Positions 13,738 to 33,634 of a stretch of DNA of 64,000 nt are shown one piece after another (positions within the stretch are counted from its first letter, which is position 1; the number at the start of each line of letters is the position of its first letter). The notes below the pieces were generated by a model. The model was not told where the DNA came from and searched no databases. It worked only from the letters and a program-made list of their open reading frames with translations. A program made the position numbers and the translations under genes. The DNA is from Belliella pelovolcani (lineage in GTDB: Bacteria > Bacteroidota > Bacteroidia > Cytophagales > Cyclobacteriaceae), in assembly GCF_900156785.1 (NCBI RefSeq), contig NZ_FTOP01000003.1, forward strand, positions 62,001 to 126,000. The letters are read 5' to 3'.

Positions 13738-13753
13738 AAGACTATTTTATCTT
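13738..13753 (-). promoter_or_regulatory. Imperfect GATA-N4-TATC operator before ric
   Basis: Minus-strand reading AAGATAAAATAGTCTT matches the 16-bp operator found elsewhere in the window, with one arm position off. It sits about 20 nt before the ric start, where it could cover the promoter of the nos operon. Confidence 0.5.
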
Positions 13754-13771
13754 TTATTGTTGTAAATTTTT

Positions 13772-14203
13772 TTAATATTTCAGGAAGCTTATACCATCAT
13801 TGACCCGTGTAGCTATGTCTTTTAGATTGGTAGTCAACATCATACCTGTCAGATGGTCTCGCACTGCCTTGAATTTGTGGTGAACAGGGCAAGGGTGATC
13901 TTCTGAGCATTTTTCTAAGCCTAGTGCACACCCTGTAAAGATCAGGTTACCATCTATGCTACCTACTATTTGTGCAATAGTAATGGTATTTGGATCCCCT
14001 TGAATTTCAAATCCCCCGTGTGGGCCTTTGGCTGAATTCAGCAGTTCATCCCTGACGAGTTGCTGAAGTATTTTTGCTGTGAATGCTTCTGGTGAATTGA
14101 TTGCCTGAGCGATCTCTTTCAAGCCCGCACGCTGTACTCCCTCAGGAAGGGTAGCCACATAGATCATGGCGTTGATGGCATATTTGCAGGCTTTTGAAAA
14201 CAT
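13772..14203 (-). CDS. Rrf2-family Fe-S transcriptional regulator (first copy)
   Basis: This 143-aa protein starts MFSKACKYAINAMIYVA, the classic Rrf2 winged helix. The recognition region is FTAKILQQLVRDELLNSAKGPHGGF, followed by a three-cysteine cluster site (Cys92, Cys99, Cys105 in GCALGLEKCSEDHPC). IscR and NsrR use comparable triads to bind Fe-S clusters and sense NO or cluster status. The ATG at 14203 is chosen over a TTG at 14224 because MFSKACKYA is the conserved start. It lies upstream of ric on the same strand and has two operator copies before it, suggesting autoregulation and control of the nos operon. Calling it NsrR would go beyond the evidence. Confidence 0.92.
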   Translation of the reverse strand: MFSKACKYAINAMIYVATLPEGVQRAGLKEIAQAINSPEAFTAKILQQLVRDELLNSAKGPHGGFEIQGDPNTITIAQIVGSIDGNLIFTGCALGLEKCSEDHPCPVHHKFKAVRDHLTGMMLTTNLKDIATRVNDGISFLKY

Positions 14204-14217
14204 CTCCTCTTTAATAC

Positions 14218-14233
14218 AGGACAAATATATCCT
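14218..14233 (-). promoter_or_regulatory. Operator copy 1 upstream of the first rrf2 gene
   Basis: The site reads AGGATATATTTGTCCT on the minus strand: arms AGGATA and TGTCCT around 4 nt, one mismatch from a perfect palindrome. It contains TATATTTG, a consensus -7 box, so bound protein would block the promoter. Confidence 0.6.
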
Positions 14234-14244
14234 TTATTTAAATA

Positions 14245-14260
14245 AAGACAAAAATATCTT
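14245..14260 (-). promoter_or_regulatory. Operator copy 2 upstream of the first rrf2 gene
   Basis: The site reads AAGATATTTTTGTCTT on the minus strand, with the same arm pattern as copy 1 and 27 bp from it. It falls in the region expected for the -33 element. Confidence 0.55.
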
Positions 14261-14396
14261 TAAATATTTTTTACAATATAGTTTAGCAAAAAGAAAGTTG
14301 AAGCAGCTTTTTGAAGTAAGCATCAGCGAAAAAAATATACGTCCACAGATATAATTTGTAATGGTTATTTGAAAAGCTGAAATATAGGATTATTAA

Positions 14397-17300
14397 CTAG
14401 AGGTGTTTTTTGATGGTGAAGAAAAAGGTGGTGCCTTTATCAACTTCTGACTCTACCCATATCTCTCCTCCGAGTAGGTCAACGTTTTTCTTGACAATAG
14501 CAAGACCTATACCTGTACCTGAGAATTCATCCTTGGTATGTAACCTTTGAAACAATATGAAAATCTTATCGAAATACTCTTGCTGTATTCCTAGTCCATT
14601 GTCCTCAACTGAGAATTTCCAATAATTGGGGAGTTCCTCTGCTTTAATTTTTATCGAAGGCTTTACTCCCTTTCGAGTATATTTGAGACTGTTTTCGATT
14701 AGGTTTTGGAAGATTTGTCTGATGGGTGTTTCAAAGGATTTGATTACTGGAAGATCTCCTATTTCAAACTTAGCGTTAAGTTCCAAGATTCTTTTACCTT
14801 GCAGTCCAAGCACTTTTTCGATAATAGATTTCACTGGAATATATTCCATATTACCATTATCTCTACCTACTCTGGAAAACTCTAATAGATCAAGAATGAT
14901 CTGTTTCATTCTATTAGCCCCATCTATAGCAAAATGAATATACTGTTTGCCTTTTTCATCTAGTATTTGGTTATATTTTTTTTCTAGGAGCCTCATGAAG
15001 CTGCTCACCATTCTCAAAGGTTCTTGCAAATCATGTGAGGCGATATAAGCAAACTGTTCCAATTCCTGATTGGATAAGGCCAAGTCTTTGATGTTTTTTT
15101 GGAATTCCAGGTTCAATTGCTGAAGCTTTTGCTCGGAGAGTTTTTTATCATGAATATCCTGAACACTGCCATAGACCCTCACACATTTACCATTGACAAA
15201 TTCTGGTTGTCCTATTGATTTGATCCATTTTTCTTCTCCCTGCATGGTGATGATGATGGAATCTACTTCATAGCTTTGGTTTTTCTCGATTGCGTTTTCA
15301 ACACAGCTGGAAATTTCTTCACGAAATTCTTCTTTGTAAAAGTTGATGGCTTTTGCCACGTCTGGTTTATAATCATGCGGAACTCCAAAGATATCGCATG
15401 TAGTAGGTGTCCAGCTGAGCGTATTTTTGATCATATTGATTTCCCAACCACCGACTTTTGAAAGTTTGGAAGCAGAGTCAAGTAGCTCCTTGATCCTTTC
15501 GATTTCAGTAATATCTTTGATTGTTCCAATTACTCTGACAGGTTCACCTTGTTTGTTTCTCAAGATAACAGCAGAATCTTCTATCCATAAATATTCCCCA
15601 GCTTTATTGCGCATGCGGTAGATATGAGACCATTTTTCGGTCTTTGGGTTTTCTAAGGCTAGATTGAAAGAATTGACTGCAAAATCCTTATCATCAGGGT
15701 GAATCAGCTCTTTGTACCAATTTTTGTCTTCTTTTTCATGATCTAATTTATGACCAAAAATTCTCTCAAAATTTCTACCCAAATAAAAATCACCAGTTAT
15801 GGGATTAGACTCATAAATCACCTCAGAACTTGCTTCATTGAGTAATTCAAAGCGTTCGTTGATTTCTTTTACCTGTCTTTCAGCCTTGATCCTGTCATTG
15901 ATGTTGATCCCAGAGCATTGGATCTCGGTAGGGTTGCCATCTTCATCTGTAAGGCATACAAAGTCCCACAGCGTTGTTACTACCTCTCCAGCTTTTTTGG
16001 CAGGTTTATCAACTTCAAATTTATAAACCCTTCCAGGTTCTTCCATGCATTTACTAACAATTTCAATCACTTTTTCGTGATGATAATCACATATTGATTC
16101 TAGCGAATATCTTCCTTCAAAATTATAATTATGGATCCAACCAAACTCCTCTATGAATTTTTTATTGACGTAGGTATATCTTCCTTCAAGGTCTGTTTTG
16201 ATAATGTAATTGCTTTGGGATTCGAAGAATAAGCGGTAGCGCGCCTCACTGCTTTCAAGCTTTTGCTGAAATTCCTGTTGCTTGTTAATATCTCTTGAGT
16301 TTGTCAAAATGCCTTTGATTCCTTCTTCATCTAGGAAGTTGGTTGCTATGGTTTCTATCCATCTCCATCGACCAAGATTATCTTTGAACCTGTATGGTGT
16401 AAGTTCAATTCTTTTGGATTTTTGAAGTTGTTTGAATTCTTCTAGCACCAATGTCAAATCTTCAGGATGGATTAAATCAAAGCAGTTTTCACCTAACATT
16501 TCATCAGGAACCCATCCCAATATATTGAATGCGGTGGAACTGATATAGGTAAAGTTACCATCAGTATCCAAGATAGTAATCATGTCTCCGCCATCTTGTA
16601 CAATAGCACGGAATTTTTTTTCACTTGCGGCGAGTGCTTTTTCTATTTTTTTTGAAGCGTTGATATCAATCAATAATCCTGTAATTCTATGTGGTTTGCC
16701 ATCTTTGGCATATACCTTTACCTTGTCTTGCATCCAAATGTATTCGCCAGATTTGGTTCTCATTCTATAGTCAAAGGTATGGTCTTGAAGCCGTGTAGTT
16801 TCCGTATGACAGGTATTGATAGCATATGTTCTATCATCTGGATGAATATGATCTTGCCAAAAATTGGGTGTATTCAACCACTCCTCTGCTGTATATCCTA
16901 TGAATTTTTCTGCTTGAGGGCTTACATAATAAAACTCAAAAGTCTGTGCGTCTGCTTCCCAAAAAATTCCATCCGTATTTTCAATCAGTTTCCTATTTCT
17001 ATCTTTTGCAACTTCTAATTCTTGGATTTGCTTGTTTCCTGCAAAACTAAGGTGCCTTAACTCCAAAAGCGTGATGACTTGATCTCTTAATTTTAATAGT
17101 GCTTCAATCTGTGCTTCTGATAAACTCCTTGGGTTGTGATCCATCACACATAGTGTTCCTAAGGAGGTCCCGCTTGGAGTGATTAATGGTATACCAGCAT
17201 AAAAAGAAATTTTCGGATCTTGGTTGATCAGAGGGTTATCTTTGAAACTTTCATCTGCATGTAAATCTTGGACAATAAAAGGCTGATCCGAATGCTGAAT

Positions 17301-17543
17301 AGCTTGATTACAAATTGAATACTCTAATGGAATTTCTGAAATGTTTAGTCCATGATGTGACTTGAAAAATTGATTTTTGTCATCCAATAAGGTAATCAAA
17401 CTAATGGGGGTTCCGCAGATAAATGCAGCCAATTGGGTGATAGCGTCATATTCTTTTTCTGGAAGGGTATAAAGTATCTCGATGGGTTCAAGGTAAGCTA
17501 ACCTCATTTTGACGGCACTCTCGTCTTTCATGCGGGAAAACAT
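14397..17543 (-). CDS. Soluble GAF/multi-PAS sensor histidine kinase
   Basis: This 1048-aa cytoplasmic kinase has no membrane helix. An N-terminal GAF domain (about 30-165, with FKSHHGLNISEIPLEYSICN and FYAGIPLITPSGTSLGTLCV) is followed by about five PAS/PAC units (roughly 190-800, each with a WRW- or YLWI-like PAC strand). It ends with a HisKA domain whose phosphoacceptor is His837 in ASHDLQEPLRMV and an HATPase domain with NLIENSLKYT, VEDNGLGIQ and TGIGLAIVKK. This resembles bacteriophytochrome-like light or redox kinases, but no chromophore Cys is evident. No response regulator is adjacent. A functional link to the nos or Mo genes is not shown. Confidence 0.93.
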   Translation of the reverse strand: MFSRMKDESAVKMRLAYLEPIEILYTLPEKEYDAITQLAAFICGTPISLITLLDDKNQFFKSHHGLNISEIPLEYSICNQAIQHSDQPFIVQDLHADESFKDNPLINQDPKISFYAGIPLITPSGTSLGTLCVMDHNPRSLSEAQIEALLKLRDQVITLLELRHLSFAGNKQIQELEVAKDRNRKLIENTDGIFWEADAQTFEFYYVSPQAEKFIGYTAEEWLNTPNFWQDHIHPDDRTYAINTCHTETTRLQDHTFDYRMRTKSGEYIWMQDKVKVYAKDGKPHRITGLLIDINASKKIEKALAASEKKFRAIVQDGGDMITILDTDGNFTYISSTAFNILGWVPDEMLGENCFDLIHPEDLTLVLEEFKQLQKSKRIELTPYRFKDNLGRWRWIETIATNFLDEEGIKGILTNSRDINKQQEFQQKLESSEARYRLFFESQSNYIIKTDLEGRYTYVNKKFIEEFGWIHNYNFEGRYSLESICDYHHEKVIEIVSKCMEEPGRVYKFEVDKPAKKAGEVVTTLWDFVCLTDEDGNPTEIQCSGININDRIKAERQVKEINERFELLNEASSEVIYESNPITGDFYLGRNFERIFGHKLDHEKEDKNWYKELIHPDDKDFAVNSFNLALENPKTEKWSHIYRMRNKAGEYLWIEDSAVILRNKQGEPVRVIGTIKDITEIERIKELLDSASKLSKVGGWEINMIKNTLSWTPTTCDIFGVPHDYKPDVAKAINFYKEEFREEISSCVENAIEKNQSYEVDSIIITMQGEEKWIKSIGQPEFVNGKCVRVYGSVQDIHDKKLSEQKLQQLNLEFQKNIKDLALSNQELEQFAYIASHDLQEPLRMVSSFMRLLEKKYNQILDEKGKQYIHFAIDGANRMKQIILDLLEFSRVGRDNGNMEYIPVKSIIEKVLGLQGKRILELNAKFEIGDLPVIKSFETPIRQIFQNLIENSLKYTRKGVKPSIKIKAEELPNYWKFSVEDNGLGIQQEYFDKIFILFQRLHTKDEFSGTGIGLAIVKKNVDLLGGEIWVESEVDKGTTFFFTIKKHL

Positions 17544-17754
17544 TTGGTGATAAGTTTTACAATTTTAGAATTGAGTATCAGAGGGTGATTGAAATTACTC
17601 TTCTCCAATTTCGGTAAAATAATCGAATGTTTTTTTATTACTTGAATTTACTTTACAACCTGAAAATTAATGATTACCAATGCTAGATTTAATGGTATAA
17701 ATGTTTTCAATAGCTTTATTTTTAGTAGATGAAATGATCTGCTAGAAAATAAAA

Positions 17755-17779
17755 AAATCCCAGCATTAAACTGGGATTT
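17755..17779 (-). terminator. Rho-independent terminator of the nitroreductase gene
   Basis: AAATCCCAG and CTGGGATTT form a 9-bp stem with a 7-nt loop, followed on the minus strand by a T-run. It lies 4 nt past the gene's stop. Confidence 0.85.
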
Positions 17780-17783
17780 AAGT

Positions 17784-18416
17784 TTAGATTTTTACAAATA
17801 ACTTGTCTTTTGGTCTTCTAACTTTCTTGGCATTCACTAAGTGATCAGTATGGTCGTCTCTGTAGCCTAAGGCTAAAAGAGACGAAGCACCTAAACCTTT
17901 TGCTGCAAGTCCTAAAACTTCATCCACTTCGGCAGGATTGAAACCTTCCATTGGTGTGCTATCAACTTTTTCCTCAGCAGCCGACACCAAAGCGGTTCCC
18001 AATGCGATGTAAGCCTGTTTTGACGCCCAATTGAAAATCTCAGTCTCCGACTGTTTGGCAAAATGTTCCTTTAGAAAGTTGGCATATTGATCAAGAGCTC
18101 CTCTTTCCATACCTCTTTCTTCATATACAAGGTCGAAATAAGTATCAATCTGCTCAGGAGTAATTTTTTTCCAAGCAGCAAAGACCAGTAGGTGAGACCC
18201 TTCTACCACCTGCGGTTGCTTTACAGCAGACTTGAAAAGCTTTTCTTTAGTCTCCTTGTCTTCAATGACCAATACCGTGAATGGTTGTAAGCCATTAGAA
18301 GTAGCGGTCAATCTGATAGATTCTAAGATGTTTTCAAGTTTTTCAGCAGGAACTTGCTGCCCATTCATTCTTTTGGCTGCATAGCGCCAATTCAAACTTT
18401 TTATCGTTGTACTCAT
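17784..18416 (-). CDS. NAD(P)H-dependent nitroreductase-family flavoprotein
   Basis: The product is 210 aa from the ATG at 18416, giving MSTTIKSLNWRYAAKRMNG. The frame stays open to 18494, but the extra 26 residues are hydrophobic and not family-like. FMN-binding features of the NfsB-type family are present: WRYAAKRMNG, SIRLTATSNGLQPF, AYIALGTALVSAAEE, DSTPMEGFNPAEVDEVLGL and ALGYRDD. Such enzymes reduce nitro compounds, quinones or flavins with NAD(P)H in the cytoplasm. The true substrate cannot be read from sequence. It is a single gene with its own terminator. Confidence 0.92.
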   Translation of the reverse strand: MSTTIKSLNWRYAAKRMNGQQVPAEKLENILESIRLTATSNGLQPFTVLVIEDKETKEKLFKSAVKQPQVVEGSHLLVFAAWKKITPEQIDTYFDLVYEERGMERGALDQYANFLKEHFAKQSETEIFNWASKQAYIALGTALVSAAEEKVDSTPMEGFNPAEVDEVLGLAAKGLGASSLLALGYRDDHTDHLVNAKKVRRPKDKLFVKI

Positions 18417-18625
18417 TTTGTTTGTCTTGTTAACTGATGTATATACATATAATAGGATTGAATAGTTCAGAGTTTCAAAAAATACTAGCATCAAAATTAT
18501 TTTAATAAGACTATCATTTGATTGAGAGCTTTTCCAAAGTTTGGTTAAAAATTCTGACTGACTTTGGTAAATCTGAACTTTGGATAAGCCACATTAAATC
18601 AAATTGAAATCATAAACCAGAGTTT

Positions 18626-19540
18626 TCAATGCCTATACTTCGGCCCTTCCAAAACTTTGAATAGATGTAAAACCGCTGGAAAAATAGCGTCCATAGATTC
18701 TTCGGCGCCTTTGGTTGATCCTGGAAGGGCTAGTACGAGGGTATTGCCGATCAAGCCAGCAACAGACCTGGAGAGCATGGAGTAGGGCATACGGGCTTGT
18801 CCATAGCTGCGGATAGCCTCTTCTATACCGGGTACTTCTCGCTCTATCAGCGGTCTGATGGCCTCAGGGGTTACATCTTTCGGTGAAAGTCCTGTACCTC
18901 CTGAAAAGATGACCATGTCCATGCCTGCCTCAACAAATCCTCTGAGCTTGCTTTGGATCTTTTCTTTTTCGTCAGGGATGATGGAATAATCTTCAATGCT
19001 GACTTTTGAAGCTTCTAATTTTTGGATAATTACCTTGCCTGCCCTGTCTTCCTTTTGCCCTGAAGCTATGCTGTCCGAACAGACAATTACAGCGGCTTTG
19101 AGGTTTTGCTCCTTGTCTTTGGCATAATCTGTTTTTCCCCCTTTTTTCTCGATCAATTTGATCTGCTCTATGCTGATGTTTTTGTCTATGGGTTTGAGCA
19201 TGTCATACATGGTCAGGGCCACCACAGATGCAGCATGCATAGCTTCCACCTCCACGCCTGTTTTGTAGATGGTGTGGATTTCTACCAAGACATAAATCTC
19301 CAAACCTTTGATTTCGTAATTCACGGAAGTGAACTCCACAGGAAGAGGATGGCAATCCGGAATCATGTCAGCAGTACGCTTGGCAGCAAAAAGTCCAGCC
19401 ACCTTGGCCATTTCAAATACATCTCCCTTGGGCACTATTTTATTGACCACAGCAGCGATGGTTTCTTCCGAACTCACTTTAACAATGGCCTGTGCTATGG
19501 CTTTTCTAAGGGTGGTGGATTTATGGGTGATGTTGATCAT
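18626..19540 (-). CDS. moaCB: Bifunctional molybdenum cofactor protein, MoaC fused to MoaB/MogA
   Basis: This 304-aa protein has MoaC in residues 1-150 (GDVFEMAKVAGLFAAKRTADMIPDCHPLP, quoted here as the block GDVF to DCHPLP at about 39-67; EVEAMHAASVVALTMYDML) and a MogA/MoaB domain after 150 (VCSDSIASGQKEDRAG, FSGGTGLSPKDVTPEAIRP, LPGSTKGAEESM). MoaC works with MoaA to make cyclic pyranopterin monophosphate; MogA/MoaB adenylylates molybdopterin. The fusion joins an early and a late step of one pathway and is known from other Bacteroidota. It is the last of the minus-strand Mo-cofactor genes. Confidence 0.94.
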   Translation of the reverse strand: MINITHKSTTLRKAIAQAIVKVSSEETIAAVVNKIVPKGDVFEMAKVAGLFAAKRTADMIPDCHPLPVEFTSVNYEIKGLEIYVLVEIHTIYKTGVEVEAMHAASVVALTMYDMLKPIDKNISIEQIKLIEKKGGKTDYAKDKEQNLKAAVIVCSDSIASGQKEDRAGKVIIQKLEASKVSIEDYSIIPDEKEKIQSKLRGFVEAGMDMVIFSGGTGLSPKDVTPEAIRPLIEREVPGIEEAIRSYGQARMPYSMLSRSVAGLIGNTLVLALPGSTKGAEESMDAIFPAVLHLFKVLEGPKYRH

Positions 19541-19859
19541 TGTATTTTTAGCTTTATATGAAGTAAGTAGGGAAAAGGGTTAGATATTGATGGATATTAG
19601 CTGTTGCGATATTGGGATATTAGGTTAGCATGAAATAAGTATGTTATCCCCAAATTTAACTCAAAACACCTATATCAGTAACTTTAATATTTAGGGTTAT
19701 CCGATGCTCAGAAACAAAAATCAAATAATATCCAAATATCTTATAAGACGAATTTGACATGATGCTTCAGTATCTTGAGTTTTAGGTTTTATCTTGAGTT
19801 TTAGGTTTTGCGTCGAAACCAATATCCATTAGTATCAAATATCAATCAATATCTAATTT
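19541..19859. repeat. Intergenic region with 10-bp phased ATATC repeats and a 19-bp tandem repeat
   Basis: No gene is seen here. At 19583-19622 and 19831-19857 are runs of degenerate units of the form AATATCnAnn or its complement, spaced about 10 bp. At 19771-19808 a 19-bp unit (TATCTTGAGTTTTAGGTTT) occurs twice in perfect tandem. The same ATATC-type unit fills the other gaps of the Mo-cofactor cluster. Confidence 0.7.
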
Positions 19860-20306
19860 TCAAGTATTCACCTTCCACTCAGATTTTTCATTATCCAGAA
19901 TTTCTTTTCCCCAGATGGGCAACTCTTTTTTGATGCGCTCGACGAGTTCTTCACAGGCATCGATGGCGGCTTTCCGATGTTTGGAGGAAGTAAAGACAAA
20001 GAGGCAGATTTCTCCTGTTTTGACCTCGCCCAAGCTATGGTAAATATGCATGCAGGTCAATGGATATTTGGCAAAGATGGCTTCACGGATTTCGAAGGAC
20101 TGTTGCAAAGCCATGTCTTCATAGGCCGTGTATTCGATGGCCACTACTGAGCCCTCTTCTTTTTCATCAGCTCTTACCTGTCCGAGAAAGATGCTATGTC
20201 CGCCAATATTTGTTTTTGTGCTATGATTGGCGATGGATTTCGCGATTTTATCAGGAGAGATCGCTCCTTCTACAAATATGTTTTTTGGTGTTCTTTTCTT
20301 TTCCAT
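19860..20306 (-). CDS. moaE: Molybdopterin synthase catalytic subunit
   Basis: This 148-aa MoaE protein has GGHSIFLGQVRADE, VVAIEYTAYEDMA, HIYHSLGEVKTGEICLFVFTSSKHRKAA and the C-terminal IWGKEILDNEKSEWKVNT with the active-site lysine region. With the small subunit MoaD it inserts two sulfurs into cyclic pyranopterin monophosphate. It sits in the Mo-cofactor cluster, flanked on both sides by repeat-rich gaps of over 300 bp. That layout suggests these genes may not form one tight operon. Confidence 0.96.
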   Translation of the reverse strand: MEKKRTPKNIFVEGAISPDKIAKSIANHSTKTNIGGHSIFLGQVRADEKEEGSVVAIEYTAYEDMALQQSFEIREAIFAKYPLTCMHIYHSLGEVKTGEICLFVFTSSKHRKAAIDACEELVERIKKELPIWGKEILDNEKSEWKVNT

Positions 20307-20745
20307 GGTTTTTTTATTTAGGCCACAAAGGCGCTAAGACACTAAGGTAATATTGGTTTTGGCTCTTTGGGGCTTGTTTTTGATAGAAATATGATAGAAA
20401 TATGGTGGAAATATTATAGAAATATTGTTGAAATAGGGTTTGTCTTCATGTTTCATTCAGGTTTTTCGAAGCATATTTCCATTCTATTTCAACTATATCC
20501 CGAATCAATTCGCTCTCGGGATCTCCATTTCACTCCGATTTCGCCGAAGGTATATTTCACTATCCACTAATATCCAATATCCACAAATATCCTTTCTTCA
20601 ATATCCTGAATCAATTGTATCTTCTGGTTTGCGCTAAAACTCTGGGTTGAAAATATTTCGCCGAAGGCATATTTCTAATTATCTCGCAAAGCATATTTCT
20701 GTGTCATAATATCCATTAGTATCTAATATCAATCAATATCTTATT
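20307..20745. repeat. Intergenic region with five 11-bp tandem units and dispersed repeat fragments
   Basis: No gene is seen. Units GATAGAAATAT, GATAGAAATAT, GGTGGAAATAT, TATAGAAATAT and TGTTGAAATAG follow each other exactly every 11 bp at 20382-20436. A fragment like CACAAAGGCGCTAAGACACT at 20324-20343, several GCATATTTC motifs next to CGCCGAAGG (20540-20700), and ATATCC-type units at 20565-20600 and 20707-20745 fill the rest. Confidence 0.7.
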
Positions 20746-21825: not shown

Positions 21826-21828
21826 GGA

Positions 21829-26324: not shown

Positions 26325-26390
26325 AATCGAAAAATTTAAAGTGATACTAATCTATTCAAATTAATAAAAATTAGGGAGAGATTAAAATGT

Positions 26391-26590
26391 TTATTTGGAT
26401 AAGAGTGGAAATGGAATTAGAAATTCTTTTTACCTGTCCTCGAAATTGCAAATTTCGATGAGCGTGCTATTCGGGATTTGCAATCTCGAACCTAGATAAA
26501 GAGGATTTCAAATCCTCTTTTCCGGTTTAGGGTAGAATGGAATTAGAAATTCCTTTTATCTGTCCTCGAAATTGCAAATTTCGAGGAGCA
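26391..26590. repeat. REP-like hairpin array upstream of the RAYT gene
   Basis: Same units as on the other side: CCTCGAAATT...AATTTCGA (26439-26458), TTCGGGATTTGCAATCTCGAA (26470-26490, one mismatch in the stem), GAGGATTTCAAATCCTC, GGAATTAGAAATTCC and CCTCGAAATT...AATTTCGAGG (26563-26586). Order and linkers parallel the left array. No gene is seen between 26325 and 26650. Confidence 0.85.
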
Positions 26591-26650
26591 AAGTTTATTT
26601 ATTTCGAATTTTCTCCAAATCTTCAGTGCTTCTGTGGCAAGGGAAAAATC

Positions 26651-27328
26651 TTAGTTTCGCCAGACTAATTCAAGTTCGGGATAATCTGTAATTACTAGGT
26701 TTGGCTTTTTGCTTTGAGGTAAGGTCTTGATTGTTTCTTTTTCGTCTACGAAGTGTTGTAAATAATATTTTCCCTTGTAGCCTTGGTGATGAAGGAAACT
26801 AGCCATTTTCGAAACCTTTTCTGCGTTGATCAATTCTGAATGGACGGTTGTCCTTATTTCAAAGGGAACATTGTGGCCTTTCAATACTTCCAGACTTTCT
26901 CTAAACTGCTCAAAAAAATCAGAGTGGGTGATGCTTTCAAAATCTTCCGGCAAAGCTTTGAAATCCAGTGCGACATAATCCACCAATCTTTCATAAAACA
27001 AATCTTCAAGTACGTGAGGGTGGCTTCCATTGGTATCTATTTTGACTTTCATTCCAAGGCGCTTTACTTCCGAGGCATAGTAGGGTAGGTCTTGGTGCAT
27101 CGTGCACTCCCCGCCGCTGAAGACAACACCATCAAGCAGGTTTTTCCTTTTTTCTAAAAAGCTAAGCACTTCATCGAAACCGACCTTTCCTTTTCCTTTG
27201 ACGATTTCAGGATTGTAGCAATAGCCACAACGCATATTACAGCCTGCAAACCAAAGAATGCAGGCTGTATGATCAGGATAATCCAGCAGCGTAAATGGAG
27301 TGATACTGTAAATTGGCTTTTTGACCAT
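26651..27328 (-). CDS. nrdG: Anaerobic ribonucleotide reductase activating enzyme (radical SAM)
   Basis: This 225-aa protein has CNMRCGYC (Cys30, Cys34, Cys37) binding the 4Fe-4S cluster, FSGGECTMH for SAM, and KVKIDTNGSHP. It uses SAM to generate the glycyl radical on NrdD. It is of the longer form found in Bacteroidota and other anaerobes, rather than the 154-aa enterobacterial form. It follows the small glycyl-radical gene by 5 nt, so nrdD, the small gene and nrdG form one operon. Confidence 0.95.
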   Translation of the reverse strand: MVKKPIYSITPFTLLDYPDHTACILWFAGCNMRCGYCYNPEIVKGKGKVGFDEVLSFLEKRKNLLDGVVFSGGECTMHQDLPYYASEVKRLGMKVKIDTNGSHPHVLEDLFYERLVDYVALDFKALPEDFESITHSDFFEQFRESLEVLKGHNVPFEIRTTVHSELINAEKVSKMASFLHHQGYKGKYYLQHFVDEKETIKTLPQSKKPNLVITDYPELELVWRN

Positions 27329-27333
27329 TAAGT

Positions 27334-27504
27334 TTATTCTTTGAAATGGGTTCTCTGTTTGTGTTCCCCTTTTTTGCCAACGTTAAAACTTTCTACTGGC
27401 CTATGGTAGCCCATGACCCGGGTATATACCAGACATTTCGTCCTTTTGTCTTCATGTTGGGAAAGTAGGTTTTTGGTTTGGCGTTCTTTGATTTCAGTTT
27501 GCAT
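27334..27504 (-). CDS. Separate 56-aa glycyl-radical segment of anaerobic ribonucleotide reductase
   Basis: This ORF (ATG at 27504, TAA at 27334-27336) encodes MQTEIKERQTKNLLSQ..., then CLVYTRVMGYHRPVESFNVG and a basic tail. RVMGYHRPVESFN is the glycyl-radical block that normally ends NrdD, with the radical site expected at Gly32. The upstream nrdD frame stops without this block. The ATG overlaps the last 11 nt of nrdD in the +1 frame, so the two parts are either made as separate chains by coupled translation or joined by a frameshift. Free-standing short NrdD C-terminal proteins are annotated in some anaerobes, so a natural two-piece enzyme is plausible. A sequencing error is the other option. 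Confidence 0.85.
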   Translation of the reverse strand: MQTEIKERQTKNLLSQHEDKRTKCLVYTRVMGYHRPVESFNVGKKGEHKQRTHFKE

Positions 27505-29608
27505 GATTATATTGATTTTGGTTTAAATTATCTAATAGGATGTCATCGCATTTTGGACAGAATTCATGTTCACCGTTCAGATATCCATGTACTGGGCAGA
27601 TGCTGAATACCGGGGTGATAGTTATGTATGGTAGTTTAAAATTGGAGAGTACTTTTTTGACCAAGTTTCGGCAAGCCTCTGCTGAAGATATTTTTTCCCG
27701 CATGTACAGGTGGAGTACCGTGCCTCCGGTGTACTTGCATTGGAGATCATCCTGTAGCATCAATGCCTCGAATGGATCATCGGTATGATCTACAGGAATC
27801 TGCGAGGAATTGGTATAGTAGATGTTTTCCTTCATTCCAGCCTGAATGATATCATCAAAGCGTTTTTTGTCTTCCTTCGCAAACCTGTAGGTAGTGCCTT
27901 CGGCAGGAGTGGCTTCAAGGTTGTAAAGGTTACCTGTCGCCTCCTGATAGACTTTCATCTTCTCCCGGATATATTCCAGGATATCTGCCGCCAATTTTTG
28001 TCCTGAGTCAAAAGTGAGGTCATCCACACCATCAGTGAAGTTGAGGATCATTTCATTGATGCCATTGACACCGATGGTGCTGAAGTGGTTTCGGAAATGG
28101 GGAAGGTACCTTTTGGTATAAGGGAAAAGACCTCTGTCATACATTTCTTGGATAAATTGTCGCTTCTTCTCCAAGGTAGATTTGGCTATTTCCAAAAGAT
28201 GATCCAACCTTTGATAGAGTCCCTCCAAGTTACCTTTGTAGATATAGCCTAACCTTGCCATATTGATGGTGACTACTCCAATGCTTCCGGTCATCTCTGC
28301 CGAACCAAAAAGTCCATTTCCTCTTTTCAGAAGTTCGCGAAGATCCAGTTGCAGTCTGCAACACATGCTGCGCACAGCATTGGGTTTATAAGCATTTGGG
28401 TTTTCAACCCTATTACCTGATTCATCAAAGGTGTATTGACTTCCTATGAAGTTTTGGAAATATGAAGAGCCGATCTTAGCAGTATTTTCGAACAACATAT
28501 CCGTATTTTCACCATACCAATCAAAGTCCTCCGTGATGTTGACAGTAGGAATGGGAAAAGTAAAGGGCTGACCATTGGCATCACCTTCTGTCATTACAGA
28601 GTAGTAGGCCTTGTTGATCATGTTCATTTCCTTTTGAAAATACTTATAGCTCAAATCTTCCAAGCTGTTTACACCTCTGATTTTGGCGATTTCCAGTAGT
28701 TTTTCATCTTGGATAAATTTGAACAAATGAATGTCATTTTTAGTGGGGATCTGATCTTTTAAGTCCTCAGGAACTACCCAATCCAAAGTAATATTGGTAA
28801 AAGGAGACTGTCCCCATCGGGCAGGGACATTGAGGTTGTAGACAAAGGAGCGGATGGCTTTTTCTACATCTTTTTGGGAAAGTTGGTCTTTGAAGACATA
28901 GGGTGCCAAATAAGTATCAAAGGAACTGAATGCCTGTGCACCTGCCCATTCGCTTTGCAGGATTCCAAGGAAATTGGCCATTTGACCAAGTGCCTCTCTG
29001 AAGTGGGAGGGAGGCCGGCTTTCAACCCTGCCTCTTACACCATTGAAACCTTCATTGAGCAAAACCCTCAGGCTCCAACCTGCACAATATCCGGTCAGAC
29101 AATCCAGGTCATGTATATGAATGTCTCCATTGCGGTGCGCATAGCCTTCTTCCTTGCTATAAACCTTGTCGAGCCAGTAATTGGCAATGATTTTTCCTGC
29201 CACGTTATTGACCAACCCGGCATTGGAGTAGGATGTATTGGCGTTGGCATTGATGCGCCAGTCGGTTTGATGGATATATTCTTCAATAGTCTGCGTGCTG
29301 TCCACGTAGGTTGTGTCTTCATTGAGTCCGGCCACATGTTCCCTTTGCAATTTGCGCGTATGCCTGTAGAGCATAAAGGAGCGCATGACATCAAAATACC
29401 CGAATGCATACAGTTCCTTTTCGATGATATCCTGGATCTCCTCTACTGCCCAGGTCGTTTTGTATTCTAAATGCTCGAGGACTCTTTTAAAAGTGAGGGA
29501 ATGATAGGGTTGATGCACACTCTGAAATGCCTTCATCAGGGCATCTTCTATTTTGAAAGGTTCAAATGGGGCGTATTCCCCGTTTCTTTTGATGACAAAT
29601 TGATTCAT
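27494..29608 (-). CDS. nrdD: Anaerobic ribonucleoside-triphosphate reductase, large part lacking the glycyl-radical end
   Basis: This 704-aa protein has an N-terminal ATP cone (about 3-90), the NrdD body with RNGDIHIHDLDCLTGYCAGW, GQMANFLGILQSEWAGAQAFSS and NLNVPARWGQSPFTNIT, and a C-terminal zinc-type region ICPVHGYLNGEHEFCPKCD. It then ends NLNQNQYNHAN, before the RVxGYxRP block that holds the catalytic glycyl radical in class III enzymes. That block lies in the overlapping small gene. The enzyme makes dNTPs without oxygen. The upstream region contains operator copies shared with the divergent NnrS-like gene. Confidence 0.95.
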   Translation of the reverse strand: MNQFVIKRNGEYAPFEPFKIEDALMKAFQSVHQPYHSLTFKRVLEHLEYKTTWAVEEIQDIIEKELYAFGYFDVMRSFMLYRHTRKLQREHVAGLNEDTTYVDSTQTIEEYIHQTDWRINANANTSYSNAGLVNNVAGKIIANYWLDKVYSKEEGYAHRNGDIHIHDLDCLTGYCAGWSLRVLLNEGFNGVRGRVESRPPSHFREALGQMANFLGILQSEWAGAQAFSSFDTYLAPYVFKDQLSQKDVEKAIRSFVYNLNVPARWGQSPFTNITLDWVVPEDLKDQIPTKNDIHLFKFIQDEKLLEIAKIRGVNSLEDLSYKYFQKEMNMINKAYYSVMTEGDANGQPFTFPIPTVNITEDFDWYGENTDMLFENTAKIGSSYFQNFIGSQYTFDESGNRVENPNAYKPNAVRSMCCRLQLDLRELLKRGNGLFGSAEMTGSIGVVTINMARLGYIYKGNLEGLYQRLDHLLEIAKSTLEKKRQFIQEMYDRGLFPYTKRYLPHFRNHFSTIGVNGINEMILNFTDGVDDLTFDSGQKLAADILEYIREKMKVYQEATGNLYNLEATPAEGTTYRFAKEDKKRFDDIIQAGMKENIYYTNSSQIPVDHTDDPFEALMLQDDLQCKYTGGTVLHLYMREKISSAEACRNLVKKVLSNFKLPYITITPVFSICPVHGYLNGEHEFCPKCDDILLDNLNQNQYNHAN

Positions 29609-29724
29609 AAGCTGGGTTGATTTGATAGTTTAAGTTCACAAAACTTTTTCAAGGTAGAGCCAATAGTATGCTTCAGAAATAGAAATGGTCATGTTTTGAG
29701 TTGAGATATATCATGAAAAACTAA

Positions 29725-29746
29725 TAAAAGATAAAATTATCTTTTA
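29725..29746. promoter_or_regulatory. Perfect operator palindrome between nrdD and the NnrS-like gene
   Basis: Two 10-nt arms (TAAAAGATAA and TTATCTTTTA) flank AA; the core is AAGATAAAATTATCTT at 29728-29743. It is one of three operator-like sites in this divergent gap and lies about 95 nt before the NnrS-like start. Confidence 0.7.
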
Positions 29747-29755
29747 ATGGAAAAG

Positions 29756-29771
29756 TTGATATATTTGTCTT
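29756..29771 (+). promoter_or_regulatory. Imperfect operator overlapping a -7 box before the NnrS-like gene
   Basis: TTGATATATTTGTCTT has arms of the shared operator type around TATT and contains TATATTTG, a consensus -7 box for plus-strand transcription toward the NnrS-like gene. Confidence 0.55.
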
Positions 29772-29815
29772 CAGAAACTAGGGGAGCTATGCTCTTCTTT
29801 CTTATCAAATAAAAA

Positions 29816-29831
29816 CGGATAAAATTATCCG
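29816..29831. promoter_or_regulatory. Perfect operator palindrome just before the NnrS-like start
   Basis: CGGATAAAATTATCCG is a perfect palindrome with 6-nt arms around AAAT, ending 7 nt before the ATG at 29839. A bound repressor here would block initiation or elongation. Confidence 0.7.
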
Positions 29832-29838
29832 ACTTAAT

Positions 29839-30972
29839 ATGAGACTCTTGAAGCCACTTTATGTATTTCCATTGGTTTTGTCAGGGCTGTTACTTGGCAT
29901 TTCAGGTGGTTTTGTGAGGTTAGGCTTTTTAGACTGGAATATTTCGGGAACTGCAGCTCAGCATGGTGTATTGATGGTTGGAGGTTTTTTAGGAACCTTG
30001 ATTACGCTGGAGAGAGCGATGGTGATGAAAAATAGACTTTGGTTGTTTGTTGCTTTTTTAAGTGGTGTTTCCATCCCGGTTTTGTTGTTGCCGGGGTGGA
30101 GCACTTTTGGCCAGGTTTTATTACTTGGAGCCAGTATTGGTTTGGTGATCATCATTTACCTGCAGAGTATCAGACATCCCCAACCTTATCAATATATCAT
30201 GTCTATAGGTGCTATTTCTTGGTTTTTGGGGAATTTCACGATGATTTATACTGGGTTTATTCCAGCAGCAGTTCCTTGGTGGATGGGGTTTTTGTTGTTT
30301 ACCATTGTTGGAGAGCGGTTAGAATTGAGTAAGTTTTTGCCTACACCGTCTTATGCAAAGAAAGTTTTATATGTGTTGTTGGGGTTAAATTTTATAGGCA
30401 TGTGGCTTCCTTTTCATGGGATTGGTAATTGGCTTATGGGAGGTTCAGTGATATTCATTGCTTTCTGGTTATTGCATTTTGATATGGCAAAAGTCGCTTC
30501 GAAAAAAGAGCGACAGTTCAAGTATATAGGAATAGGTTTAAGGGTAGGTTATTTGTGGCTGGTTGTAAATGGTTTGGTGCTTTGTTTTATGGAAATGCAC
30601 CCTTTGTTTTATGACCTTTACTTACATACTTTTTTTCTGGGGTTTACATTTTCTATGATTTGGGCACATGCGCCAGTCATCTTTCCCATGATCATGAATA
30701 TCAAAGAAAAACCCTATCACCCAATCCTATGGCCCGCTTGGCTGATCTTTCAATTGACGCTAATAGGTAGGATAGGGAGTAGTCTATTGAAATTATCAGA
30801 TTGGAGATTGTGGTTTGGTGTGGCTAATGGGTGGTCAATTTTAATCATTTTTGCTTTGATGGCGCTAATTGTCCTTACTAAGATCACGTATTCTAAATTT
30901 TATCAAAGAATCAATACTTCTGTTCGTGTTCAAATTAAAAACACAGAGAATAAAGTCACAGAACAGTCTTGA
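29839..30972 (+). CDS. NnrS-like polytopic membrane protein
   Basis: This 377-aa protein has about 10-12 hydrophobic helices. The segment TAAQHGVLMVGGFLGTLITLERAM matches the conserved His-Gly and ERA block of NnrS-type proteins, and histidines recur in HPLFYDLYLHTFFLGFTFSMIWAHAP. NnrS proteins are heme- and copper-linked membrane proteins associated with NO stress and denitrification. It is divergent from nrdD, with operators close upstream. The match to NnrS is by motif and context; this may be a Bacteroidota subfamily with its own role. It is apparently monocistronic. Confidence 0.78.
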   Translation: MRLLKPLYVFPLVLSGLLLGISGGFVRLGFLDWNISGTAAQHGVLMVGGFLGTLITLERAMVMKNRLWLFVAFLSGVSIPVLLLPGWSTFGQVLLLGASIGLVIIIYLQSIRHPQPYQYIMSIGAISWFLGNFTMIYTGFIPAAVPWWMGFLLFTIVGERLELSKFLPTPSYAKKVLYVLLGLNFIGMWLPFHGIGNWLMGGSVIFIAFWLLHFDMAKVASKKERQFKYIGIGLRVGYLWLVVNGLVLCFMEMHPLFYDLYLHTFFLGFTFSMIWAHAPVIFPMIMNIKEKPYHPILWPAWLIFQLTLIGRIGSSLLKLSDWRLWFGVANGWSILIIFALMALIVLTKITYSKFYQRINTSVRVQIKNTENKVTEQS

Positions 30973-31059
30973 AATTCATTTGCCTTTTGAGAAACAATCA
31001 TAGGAATTTTAATAGAGTGCTTTCCCTAAATTTTAAGAAAGTAAAAACCCATTTTAAAA

Positions 31060-31075
31060 AAGATATATTTATCTT
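31060..31075. promoter_or_regulatory. Perfect operator palindrome before the HEPN/MNT pair
   Basis: AAGATATATTTATCTT has perfect 6-nt arms around TATT and covers TATATTTA, a near-consensus -7 box. It ends 44 nt before the ATG at 31120. Confidence 0.65.
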
Positions 31076-31119
31076 CACTGGAATCAATCATTTATATAGC
31101 ATTCAATTTGAAAGACAAA

Positions 31120-31518
31120 ATGGACATCAGGTGGAAACAGCGGTTTGAAAACTATCAAAAGGCTTTTGGTCAATTAAAGTCTGCGATTGAAGACAATGGA
31201 GTGAACCCAATTGATATTATCAAAGAAGGGATATTACAACGTTTTGAATTTACGCATGAGTTAGCCTGGAAAGTGATGAAGGATTACCTTGAATTTGAAG
31301 GGATTCAAAATATTACTGGTTCCAGAAGTGCCACTAGAGAAGCATTTAATATTGGATTAATTCAAAAAGGACAAATTTGGATGGACATGATTGAAAGTAG
31401 AAATAAAATAGTACATACATACAATCAAGACGTATTGATTGTAGAGTTTAAGAAAGTAGTTGAAGATTACTTTGTGCTATTTGAAGCGTTTGAGGAAAAA
31501 ATGAAATCATTGTTATGA
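31120..31518 (+). CDS. HEPN-domain protein of a HEPN/MNT pair (HI0074 type)
   Basis: The product is 132 aa from ATG 31120 (a TTG at 31108 would add four residues). The helical fold signature ILQRFEFTHELAWKVMKDYLE and SRSATREAFNIGLI mark the nucleotidyltransferase substrate-binding HEPN family. RNKIVHTY (Arg94, Asn95, His99) fits the RxxxxH RNase motif of HEPN toxins. It overlaps the MNT gene by 4 nt (ATGA). In characterised pairs the MNT partner neutralises HEPN, often by AMPylating it. It may therefore be a toxin, but HI0074-like members are not all toxic. Confidence 0.88.
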   Translation: MDIRWKQRFENYQKAFGQLKSAIEDNGVNPIDIIKEGILQRFEFTHELAWKVMKDYLEFEGIQNITGSRSATREAFNIGLIQKGQIWMDMIESRNKIVHTYNQDVLIVEFKKVVEDYFVLFEAFEEKMKSLL

Positions 31519-31829
31519 AGTTTGGTTTAGATCATAAAACGATTGAAAAAATTCAAAAAGTGTTTGAAAAATTTCCTGAAGTAGAGGAGGTGGTGATTTA
31601 TGGTTCAAGAGCCAAGGGAAACTACAGAGAAGGATCGGATATTGATATTACTTTAAAGGGAGAGCGCTTAAAAGAAGACTTACTTTCGATGATTTCGCAG
31701 GAAATTGATGAGCTAAATACTCCTTATCTTTTTGATATTTCTATTTTTCACAAACTAAAATCACCTTCACTGATTGAACATATCAATAGAGTAGGGAAGG
31801 TCTTTTACAGGCTCAAAGAAAAAGTCTAA
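31515..31829 (+). CDS. Minimal nucleotidyltransferase (MNT) partner
   Basis: This 104-aa protein has the Pol-beta-type catalytic motif GSRAKGNYREGSDIDI (30-45; metal-binding Asp42 and Asp44). It is the usual partner of HEPN proteins and probably acts as antitoxin by nucleotidylating or binding the HEPN protein. It is translationally coupled to the HEPN gene. The pair sits inside the anaerobic/NO region behind a copy of the shared operator, which is unusual for a stand-alone toxin-antitoxin system. Confidence 0.92.
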   Translation: MKFGLDHKTIEKIQKVFEKFPEVEEVVIYGSRAKGNYREGSDIDITLKGERLKEDLLSMISQEIDELNTPYLFDISIFHKLKSPSLIEHINRVGKVFYRLKEKV

Positions 31830-31839
31830 TCCTGTTATA

Positions 31840-31855
31840 AAGACATTTTTATCCT
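31840..31855 (+). promoter_or_regulatory. Imperfect operator before the second rrf2 gene
   Basis: AAGACATTTTTATCCT fits the operator pattern (arms AAGACA and TATCCT around TTTT), 25 nt before the rrf2 ATG. It suggests autoregulation or cross-regulation. Confidence 0.5.
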
Positions 31856-31880
31856 TAATTTAGCAAGAAATAGTATTTAT

Positions 31881-32321
31881 ATGTTTTCAAAAGCTTGTCA
31901 GTACGGAATCAAGGCAGTCATATATATATGGTCACAAAGTCTCAAAGGGGTAAAAGTAGGCGCTAAGGAGACGGCAGAACACGTGGATGCTCCCGAGCCA
32001 TTTACTGCCAAAATCCTCCAAGAACTAGTCAGAAAAAAAGTCATAGGCTCTCAAAAAGGCCCTTCTGGTGGTTTTTATGCGGGGACAGAACATGAAAAAC
32101 TCACCTTACAAGACCTCGTGATAGCCATAGATGGAGATGGACTTTTCAGTGGCTGTAGTCTTGGATTGAAAGCATGCTCAGAGACCAATCCCTGTCCGTT
32201 ACATCATGAAATCAAAAAAGTAAGAACCCATGTAGTAAGCATGCTCACCAAAAAGACACTTAAAGAACTCGCCCTTGAAGTAGAGAGTGGAGAGACTGTC
32301 TTGGCTAGATTTGATGTGTAA
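31881..32321 (+). CDS. Rrf2-family Fe-S transcriptional regulator (second copy)
   Basis: This 146-aa protein is clearly paralogous to the Rrf2 protein encoded at 13772-14203: both start MFSKAC, share FTAKILQ, LVR, GP-GGF and place cysteines at 92, 99 and 105 (GCSLGLKACSETNPC). It therefore probably binds an Fe-S cluster and senses NO, oxygen or cluster supply. It lies next to HEPN/MNT and has an operator copy upstream. Two such paralogues 18 kb apart suggest split or hierarchical control of one regulon. Confidence 0.93.
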   Translation: MFSKACQYGIKAVIYIWSQSLKGVKVGAKETAEHVDAPEPFTAKILQELVRKKVIGSQKGPSGGFYAGTEHEKLTLQDLVIAIDGDGLFSGCSLGLKACSETNPCPLHHEIKKVRTHVVSMLTKKTLKELALEVESGETVLARFDV

Positions 32322-32330
32322 AATAAAAAA

Positions 32331-32352
32331 AAGCCAACCGTACGGCTGGCTT
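32331..32352 (-). terminator. Rho-independent terminator of the fatty acid hydroxylase gene
   Basis: AAGCCAACCG and CGGCTGGCTT form a 10-bp stem (one G-T pair) with a TA loop. The adjoining A-rich stretch at 32320-32330 becomes a T-run on the minus strand. It may also help end the convergent rrf2 transcript. Confidence 0.8.
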
Positions 32353-32360
32353 CTATGCTT

Positions 32361-33257
32361 TTATAGACTGACTTTTTCCTTTTCTCTATACTTCTCTTTG
32401 ATAGTTTCTAATTCGCTGGGCCTTGAAAATGCCATGGCATAAGCTTCTTTGAGCGATTTAGAATTTTTGACATCTCGCACCAAATCCGCCCATTCATGAA
32501 AGTTCAGTGTGATTGGATTGTATGAATTCACTTGCTTGGTCAAGCCGTAAGTAGGTCGGTCTTCTTCTGGCATGAAAGTGCCAAACATCCTATCCCAGAT
32601 GATAAATGTTGACCCATAGTTTTTATCCAAATACTTTTCATTGCTCGCATGATGAACCCTATGATGGGATGGTGTTGTGAAGAAATACTCTATTGGTTTT
32701 GGGAGTTTTGTGATGTACTCTGTATGAATCCAGAATTGATACAAAACGGCGATCTGATGTACAATAAAGAATACTACGGGGTGAAAACCTGCTAATGCTA
32801 CTGGAATAAAAAATATGATCTTGATATGTTGGGTCCAACTCAATCTGAAAGATACAGACCAGTTATACTTTTCAGAATTGTGATGTGTCACGTGTGTTGC
32901 CCACCAAAAACGGTTTTCATGTGCAACCCGATGTGCCCAATATCTCCAGAAATCAAGCCAAAACAAGCAAAGTATAAAAGCCCACCAGGTATTGGGAATA
33001 GACCATGGTACAAGGTTATAGAAAAACAAAATGATTCCAAATGTAACTACTTTGATTCCAGCGCTCATGGCCACATTAACTAGACCTATGAAGGTTGCTG
33101 AAATGGTATCCTTGCCATCATAATAGTCTTTCTTCTCTCTGTAAGAGAAAAACCATTCTAACAAAACCAATCCTATCATAACAGGTGCTGCATACAGGAT
33201 GATATTTGGTAAATCTAAACTAAAGACTTGTTCTAAGGTGAGTTTTTCTTTGTTCAT
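32361..33257 (-). CDS. Sterol desaturase/fatty acid hydroxylase family membrane protein
   Basis: The product is 298 aa from ATG 33257 (MNKEKLTLEQ); another ATG at 33293 would add 12 residues. The di-iron histidine clusters of the family are present: HRVAH, HVTHH and HHRVHH, among several membrane helices. Such enzymes oxidise lipids using O2. Members in Bacteroidota act on fatty acids, carotenoids or sphingolipid-like lipids, and the substrate cannot be told here. Being O2-dependent it does not obviously belong to the anaerobic genes around it. A terminator follows. Confidence 0.9.
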   Translation of the reverse strand: MNKEKLTLEQVFSLDLPNIILYAAPVMIGLVLLEWFFSYREKKDYYDGKDTISATFIGLVNVAMSAGIKVVTFGIILFFYNLVPWSIPNTWWAFILCLFWLDFWRYWAHRVAHENRFWWATHVTHHNSEKYNWSVSFRLSWTQHIKIIFFIPVALAGFHPVVFFIVHQIAVLYQFWIHTEYITKLPKPIEYFFTTPSHHRVHHASNEKYLDKNYGSTFIIWDRMFGTFMPEEDRPTYGLTKQVNSYNPITLNFHEWADLVRDVKNSKSLKEAYAMAFSRPSELETIKEKYREKEKVSL

Positions 33258-33293
33258 AAATTTATAAAAAGGAAGATTAATGGTTGAAATCAT

Positions 33294-33610
33294 GTCACTG
33301 CTGGGCTTTTTTTTTTAGTTTGCAGGGACCTAGATTTAGGTGATTCCAAGAAAAATGAATGTAGTAAAAACACGAGTTCGTAAGATTGAAATATTGGTAA
33401 TCATAATCAGGTAATTTTTAAGCTTTTCGTTTTTGAAAAGTACATCAATCTTAAATATAAGTATTTTTTTCAGCGAATGAAAAGTAATAGTTTGTTGATT
33501 GATTTTTGTAATGATAAGGTTCTAGGGTTTGGGTTCTTGATTTTATAGGATATTGTCGTGGAATTATTTTTCAAAAAACAATTTAAAAGCGCTAAAACCT
33601 GACTTTTATC
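33294..33610. other. Intergenic region without a recognised gene
   Basis: AT-rich sequence between two divergent genes. I see no ORF of note, no RNA gene and no clear promoter besides the operator that follows it. Confidence 0.5.
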
Positions 33611-33634
33611 ATAAAGGATATATTTATCCTTTAT
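33611..33634. promoter_or_regulatory. Best operator palindrome, before the fasciclin gene
   Basis: Ten-nt arms ATAAAGGATA and TATCCTTTAT flank TATT without a mismatch; the core AGGATATATTTATCCT contains TATATTTA, a near -7 box. It ends 31 nt before the ATG at 33666. This is the most extended copy of the shared motif in the window. Confidence 0.75.

Follow-up and report, generated by a model that had tools for sequence, protein, structure and literature searches.

Which regulator reads the palindrome that recurs in front of a nitrous oxide (N2O) reductase cluster and several other genes of Belliella pelovolcani? The question arises from a stretch of 64,000 nucleotides of the genome of this member of the Bacteroidota (contig NZ_FTOP01000003.1, positions 62,001 to 126,000), referred to here as the window, in which an initial annotation had noted a 16-bp palindrome and two genes for Rrf2-type regulators (rrf2A and rrf2B). 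The palindrome is real and is not due to chance. With a probability of about 0.8, it is the operator of Rrf2A, which would act as an NsrR/IscR-like iron-sulfur (Fe-S) repressor of its own gene and of a regulon for nitric oxide (NO) defence and N2O reduction. Sequence comparison shows that the sites are conserved across the phylum and nearly restricted to these genes. In this genome the regulon would comprise rrf2A itself, ric-cytochrome-nosZ, an oxidase-like membrane protein (here 'NnrS-like'), nrdD, a fasciclin-domain gene and rrf2B; in relatives it would include nirK, qNor, a norC-like cytochrome, NrfH and a cytochrome-nosZ pair.

The core of the palindrome, GAYAN4TRTC, occurs 13 times in the window, compared with 3.3 +/- 1.6 times in shuffled sequence, and none of 100 shuffles reached 13. 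Genome-wide this bare core was rejected as a signal, with 382 matches against 308 for the reversed control. A tighter form, RGAYAWWWWTRTCY, in which a purine and G precede the core, C and a pyrimidine follow it and the spacer is A/T, has 18 copies in 4.1 Mb (control, 8). Seven of these fall in the window, where 0.28 would be expected from its length, and all seven are intergenic, provided that rrf2A starts at the ATG at 14203; ten of the remaining 11 lie within open reading frames (ORFs), the other being intergenic. With a stricter 22-bp pattern, 18 matches were obtained in eight genomes and one in the control; the B. pelovolcani genome contributes four, all in the window. The consensus operator is approximately AAAGGATAwwwTTrTCCTTT, with the core GGATA-N4-TATCC.

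A symmetric 24-bp matrix was built from the rrf2A promoters of other species, blind to the other sites of the window. At 15 bits or more it returned seven sites (14218, 14245, 29728, 29816, 31060, 31840 and 33615) and no others, whereas 30 Markov-2 sequences gave 0.07 on average and never more than 1; a Markov-3 simulation gave four hits in 4.0 Mb. Exactly the same seven sites were recovered at 10 bits or more by a matrix made only from loci L142-L199 (38 sites, largely Flavobacteriaceae). As the matrix is independent of the copies first listed, the conclusion does not rest on that set. Nine copies had been counted initially: eight fit the core and seven reach 15 bits, the copy at 13738 misses the stated consensus by one base (GACT), and 13738 and 29756 are degenerate. 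Four (29728, 29816, 31060 and 33615) had been called perfect palindromes, which holds for their 6-bp arms and not for their 4-bp centres. Five further core matches (4933, 13136, 43833, 48652 and 59480) have G or C in the spacer and score below 9 bits each; all were rejected as operators, the one at 13136 (-13.9 bits) lying inside ric.

Orthologues of rrf2A were taken from 30 loci of the same family and from the best 80 loci of named records across Bacteroidota. The core is present within 150 bp upstream of the rrf2A start codon in 64 of these 80 loci, nearly always at -51 to -61, and in seven of the other 16 a variant that differs by one base stands there. At rrf2A, 45 of 67 training sites have TTT followed by G in the right half of the operator. 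An exact TAnnTTTG follows 21-25 bp after the operator's TTTG position in 60 of 79 rrf2A-promoter sites, and none lies between 11 and 44 bp in the other 19. This distance matches the -33/-7 spacing of Bacteroidota promoters; the overlap of the operator with the -33 position is sharp at rrf2A and would account for the preference of the right arm for TGTC rather than TATC. A second operator, present in this genome and in near relatives, lies over the -7 box itself.

Within the 80 loci (1.51 Mb), 166 matrix hits of at least 18 bits were found, of which 87 do not belong to rrf2A promoters; with 60 column-permuted symmetric matrices the average was 1.7 hits (standard deviation 5.6, maximum 34). Recognised genes lie behind 162 of the hits and four have none. 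The best-matching downstream gene was rrf2A (77 hits), ric (47), nirK (13), cytochrome c (10), fasciclin (4), NnrS-like (4), rrf2B (3), qNor (2), NrfH (1), hemerythrin-PAS (1) or other (4), a list that is partly circular, as some query proteins were picked from the hits themselves, but for which one representative per class was checked. Representatives scored above the model cut-offs for copper nitrite reductase (TIGR02376), NrfH (TIGR03153), RIC (TIGR03652) and the NorB domain (PF22085), and a NarK-like transporter in G053 scored below its cut-off. The 'norC-like' label is a reading from a general cytochrome c match. At ten loci with an operator before a 167-aa cytochrome, nosZ is the next gene behind in every case, at a distance of roughly 0.6-1.2 kb, which gives the nos cluster of those genomes a site of its own.

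Orthologues of the target genes were then scored for sites of at least 15 bits within 400 bp upstream, the window genes being counted; five short NnrS-like pieces, three weak nrdD pieces of G010 and three weak fasciclin loci were omitted. A site precedes 11 of 15 NnrS-like genes (two sites, 88-102 bp apart, in eight of the 11), eight of ten nrdD orthologues and all nine fasciclin orthologues in genomes of the same taxonomic family, the latter at -51 to -58 in eight of the nine. Fasciclin paralogues elsewhere, a built-in negative control, have none (0 of 18). The initial interpretation is supported, and the conditions that it had named as refuting do not hold: the motif stands far above simulated AT-rich sequence, four of the 166 hits lack a recognised gene behind them, and orthologues of rrf2A, ric, the NnrS-like gene, nrdD and the fasciclin gene have kept it upstream. 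The HEPN/MNT site is the weakest of the seven and is unsupported outside this genome. In relatives the motif also stands before nirK, nor genes and the cytochrome-nosZ pair. The features of the window are collected in Table 1.

Table 1. Putative operators, regulator genes and other features of the window (positions are those of the window; site scores are from the matrix)
Feature	Position	Strand	Sequence	Remarks
Proximal rrf2A putative operator	14218..14233	-	AGGACAAATATATCCT	28.6 bits; second site kept in closer relatives
Distal rrf2A putative operator	14245..14260	-	AAGACAAAAATATCTT	22.3 bits
Degenerate putative operator before ric	13738..13753	-	AAGACTATTTTATCTT	10.0 bits
Putative operator between nrdD (minus) and NnrS-like gene (plus)	29728..29743	.	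AAGATAAAATTATCTT	24.6 bits
Degenerate putative operator before nrdD	29756..29771	.	AAGACAAATATATCAA (on minus strand)	0.4 bits
Second putative operator before NnrS-like gene	29816..29831	+	CGGATAAAATTATCCG	23.1 bits; ends 7 bp before ATG
Operator-like site before HEPN/MNT	31060..31075	+	AAGATATATTTATCTT	15.6 bits, weakest of seven
Putative operator before rrf2B	31840..31855	+	AAGACATTTTTATCCT	24.5 bits
Putative operator before fasciclin gene	33615..33630	+	AGGATATATTTATCCT	30.3 bits
Probable -7 box of fasciclin gene	33635..33642	+	TAATTTTG	just behind putative fasciclin operator
rrf2A (P0001), proposed repressor	13772..14203	-		PF02082 87.4 bits; C92-x6-C99-x5-C105-x2-H108, C6
rrf2B (P0002), rrf2A paralogue	31881..32321	+		45% identical to Rrf2A; PF02082 73.3 bits
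ric (P0003), iron-sulfur cluster repair di-iron protein	12996..13718	-		TIGR03652 231.3 bits, above cut-off of 204.7
607-aa protein (P0007), membrane-type sequence + cytochrome c, between ric and nosZ	11166..12989	-		PF00034 23.5 bits; order kept in relatives
nosZ (P0012), Sec-dependent nitrous-oxide reductase, clade II	9190..11148	-		TIGR04246 926.2 bits, above cut-off of 625
nrdD (P0005), anaerobic ribonucleotide reductase	27494..29608	-		TIGR02487
'NnrS-like' membrane protein (P0004)	29839..30972	+		~12 helices; no Pfam/NCBIfam family
HEPN/MNT pair (P0008, P0009)	31108..31829	+		PF08780, PF18765
Fasciclin-domain gene (P0006)	33666..34223	+		PF02469

The individual sites differ in their relation to promoters and in their conservation. 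Site 14218 contains the likely -7 box of rrf2A, TATATTTG (minus strand), in agreement with the initial statement that copies of the palindrome contain this box, and the core itself contains TAnnTTTR; site 14245 sits at the -33 position, 23 bp before that box. At the place of 13738, ric sites of 16-27 bits are found in four relatives (L063, L079, L081 and L089), and no ric-upstream site of at least 15 bits is present in L069, L097 or L293. Eight NnrS-like genes have a site corresponding to 29728 at about -110 to -126, and seven of 15 have one corresponding to 29816 at -23 to -29, the window gene being included in both counts. Site 29756 was dismissed at first as a mere -7 box because of its score and was reinstated by alignment of the nrdD upstream regions: the low score is due to one decayed outer arm, and in the alignment the site coincides with the operator that seven relatives have at -157 to -164 before nrdD. 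On the plus strand, TATATTTG is found at 29760-29767, 24 bp after operator 29728, so the site may also serve the NnrS-like gene as a -7 box. The rrf2B genes of L295, L296 and L105 are likewise preceded by a site. No counterpart of the HEPN/MNT site was found outside this genome, and HEPN homologues in relatives lie, judged by their place on the contig, mostly away from the regulon. In G034 (L293:7119-8880), decayed NnrS-like and HEPN/MNT pieces stand beside rrf2B, in a neighbourhood like that of the window which is now breaking down; between its NnrS-like and HEPN pieces no site of at least 15 bits was identified.

Three Rrf2 proteins are encoded in the genome according to the Pfam model, two of them in the window. 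Both pass the family test (PF02082, cut-off 30), and with TIGR00738 (cut-off 73.3) Rrf2A passes at 87.5 bits, Rrf2B falling just below at 68.5. Cysteine triads had been attributed to both proteins at the outset: Cys92, Cys99, Cys105, His108 and Cys6 are invariant in 20 aligned Rrf2 proteins, and among 119 distinct Rrf2 proteins, chosen from the retrieved loci by their N-terminus and wing pattern, all have C-x6-C-x5-C-x2-H and 113 have Cys6. The NsrR hallmark of three cluster-binding cysteines is present, with x6/x5 spacing. Passages of PMC13404960 give Asp8 as the fourth cluster ligand of NsrR; residue 4 of the query pairs with residue 5 of the NsrR chain, so that residue 7 takes the place of Asp8, and the 20 Rrf2 proteins have Lys, Glu, Gln or Asn there. 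Cys6 adjoins the place of this ligand and is a possible extra cluster ligand.

Rrf2A probably works like an NsrR. A less likely possibility is that operator and Rrf2A are real and that the signal is iron-sulfur status, oxygen or redox, as for IscR or RsrR, NO acting indirectly. The Cys3-His ligand set of IscR resembles the pattern of Rrf2A. The predicted structure of Rrf2A (pLDDT 85.6) is closest to CymR and RsrR, with NsrR and IscR lower, and nrdD, which encodes an oxygen-independent enzyme, carries sites. The scores for the IscR equivalog model (58.6 and 35.0 bits for Rrf2A and Rrf2B, cut-off 207.55) and for the CymR model are below the cut-offs. Against a redox signal, ric, nirK, qNor and NrfH are NO/nitrite genes, and the 162 assigned hits fell to genes other than isc/suf, though no model search was aimed at isc/suf.

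Both Rrf2 proteins had been named as natural binders. The comparison of promoters favours Rrf2A for this role: an operator lies within 200 bp upstream of 67 of 70 A-type genes (a class that includes the training loci), 24 of 30 intermediate genes and six of 19 B-type genes. It is unlikely that the main binder is Rrf2B, or that the two paralogues share this role as homo- or heterodimers, even with the site that rrf2B has here (31840) and in the three relatives named above and with a similar DNA-reading helix (PE.FTAKILQ.LVR), given the low proportion of B-type genes with a site and the rrf2B genes of L291, L299, L300, L301, L302 and L303, which have no site of at least 15 bits in the stretch examined.

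The number of sites was also compared with the presence of Rrf2A, by counting GGAYAWWWWTRTCC against the reversed pattern in 57 of 148 compared genomes. Nineteen genomes with an Rrf2A of at least 64% identity have 135 matches against 29 in the control, and 28 genomes with no or a weak Rrf2A match have 76 against 68; as a group, the number is raised only in genomes with a close Rrf2A. This association, together with the site before rrf2A itself in 64 of 80 loci, makes it very improbable that another factor, such as an NO regulator of the Crp/Fnr family, binds the palindrome and that rrf2A is merely one target, although an Fnr-like protein (P0011) is encoded in the window. DNR and NnrR, of that family, control denitrification in Proteobacteria, and DNR sites read CTTGATnnnnATCAAG, with different arms and spacing, in passages of PMC1274295. 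That the motif is an artefact of AT-rich promoters, its GA-TAnnTTTR-TC containing the Bacteroidota -7 box (for which 29756 may serve), can be dismissed, being contradicted by the conservation of the GGATA/TATCC arms and A/T flanks even at the -33 position, by the fasciclin paralogues and by the permuted matrices. Within the genus, the block of genes is patchy: three sampled genomes (G040, G108 and G143) have no close Rrf2A and no match to the NnrS-like protein or to NrdD.

For the proposed control by Rrf2A, we infer the binding, the repression and NO as the signal from these patterns. A cluster-loaded Rrf2A dimer would bind the palindrome and block RNA polymerase by covering promoter elements; attack of NO on the cluster would release Rrf2A, and rrf2A and its targets would be induced. 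To judge from the protein families, RIC would then mend Fe-S clusters, NrdD would serve as a ribonucleotide reductase that works without oxygen, and the regulon would allow N2O to be respired. In the whole genome no match was obtained to the copper NirK model or the NorB cytochrome-c-like domain (cytochrome cd1 NirS and NorB without that domain were not searched), which, with NosZ present, suggests a non-denitrifying N2O reducer. As no copper NirK or qNor-type NorB was found, the circuit here would answer NO from outside, produced by neighbours.

Several observations weigh against this proposal. By the curated test the regulators are not NsrR, their scores with the NsrR equivalog model being 35.9 and 26.9 bits (cut-off 182), and the ligand pattern is as near to IscR as to NsrR, so that the signal may not be NO. 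The matrix was trained on rrf2A promoters. Ten genomes with an Rrf2A of 50-58% identity show no excess of GGAYAWWWWTRTCC (39 against 34), and high counts occur in G086 (8 against 1), which has no Rrf2A match, and in G120 (7 against 2), which has a weak one. In seven genomes with Rrf2A, 23 of 50 matches to a strict 14-bp pattern lie inside ORFs, and seven of those outside ORFs overlap the first 90 bases of one; in five genomes without Rrf2A, ten of 12 matches lie inside ORFs. Five Flavobacterium loci and a Flavobacteriales metagenome-assembled genome with the same Rrf2A N-terminus (L172, L181, L187 and L197-L199) have no site before rrf2A, and in four of these six ric has one. Lastly, promoter overlap is established for rrf2A only and mostly not for the other target classes: an exact TAnnTTTG follows 15-40 bp behind the operator at three of 48 ric sites and two of four NnrS-like sites and at none of the nirK (13), cytochrome (9), fasciclin (5), norC-like (7) and qNor (2) sites. 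The ric cores themselves read TAnnTTTR in 19 of 48 cases.

The other genes of the window are described more briefly. The order rrf2A-ric-membrane/cytochrome-nosZ is maintained in several relatives. Christiangramia (L143) encodes a membrane protein of 402 aa and, in a distinct gene that has an operator of its own and is followed by nosZ, a cytochrome c of 167 aa; P0007 joins both types of sequence. The membrane protein P0004 had been named 'NnrS-like', an identity for which neither Pfam nor NCBIfam gave a match; its top match in a fold search was a chain of a cbb3 oxidase (TMq 0.68, Foldseek E 0.044), weakly resembling heme-copper oxidases. His42, His193 and His263 are invariant in 13 sequences, and no significant similarity to the membrane part of P0007 was detected. 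Nearer the nrdD start, a second conserved element, TGATTTAAGTCA or close to it, is present in all ten aligned regions (L221-L229 and window 29608-29793), the window copy reading TGATATATCTCA. It resembles a Crp/Fnr-like TGA-N6-TCA box, which suggests joint anaerobic control. NrdD shares 97% identity with its counterpart in G043 and 93% with the one in G085, compared with 65% and 78% for Rrf2A in the same genomes, and horizontal transfer or an unusual constraint is possible.

A paper of 2018 described that Rrf2 genes lie beside clade II nosZ in sediment metagenomes, their role being called difficult to predict, and that natural clade II nosZ variants belong to Bacteroidetes as well as to other lineages (PMC6264515). 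The neighbourhood is of the same kind as here; the relevant passages of that paper contain no binding site, target list or mechanism. An operator makes the role of such genes directly testable and yields a target list for regulon prediction across the phylum, with fasciclin and nrdD as two unexpected members of the nitrosative response. A broader proposition, for which the balance is even, is that in much of Bacteroidota the clade II nos and denitrification genes are under an NO-responsive master repressor, so far missing, and that this repressor is Rrf2A. It would represent one more Rrf2 lineage that senses NO, with an operator grammar of its own (palindrome on the -33 or -7 element) and a distinct ligand set (C6, C92, C99, C105 and H108), with new nitrosative-stress roles for the fasciclin protein and the anaerobic ribonucleotide reductase. 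No description of the operator was found in the literature outside subscription papers and regulon databases, and the motif is probably novel.

Among known systems, NsrR is alike in belonging to the Rrf2 family, in its three cysteines and in a regulon that includes ric/dnrN, nirK, norB and, in one species, nos, with tandem sites over the promoter (passages of PMC1274295 and PMC9268430). Rrf2A differs in its operator, GGATA-N4-TATCC, the NsrR motif being gATGyAT-N5-ATrCATc in Proteobacteria, Bacillus and Streptomyces (Rodionov et al. 2005, PMC1274295). The arms had been likened to half of an NsrR site. The canonical motif (ATGYATN5ATRCAT, up to two mismatches) was rejected as the signal: it has nine matches in the window, where chance would give 15.8, and is absent from the promoters considered here. 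Further differences from NsrR are the C-x6-C-x5-C-x2-H pattern with scores far below the NsrR model cut-off, fasciclin and nrdD as targets with no hmp among the target classes identified, and the phylum. IscR, RsrR and CymR, other Rrf2 regulators whose structures have been solved, share the predicted fold and DNA-binding domain of Rrf2A; their targets differ, and Rrf2A scores below the IscR and CymR model cut-offs. HcpR of Bacteroides and Porphyromonas, a member of the Crp/Fnr family predicted to control dnrN in B. fragilis, is alike in exerting nitrosative-stress control in the same phylum and, unlike Rrf2A, belongs to another protein family and is a positive regulator, according to passages of PMC1274295 and PMC13370916.

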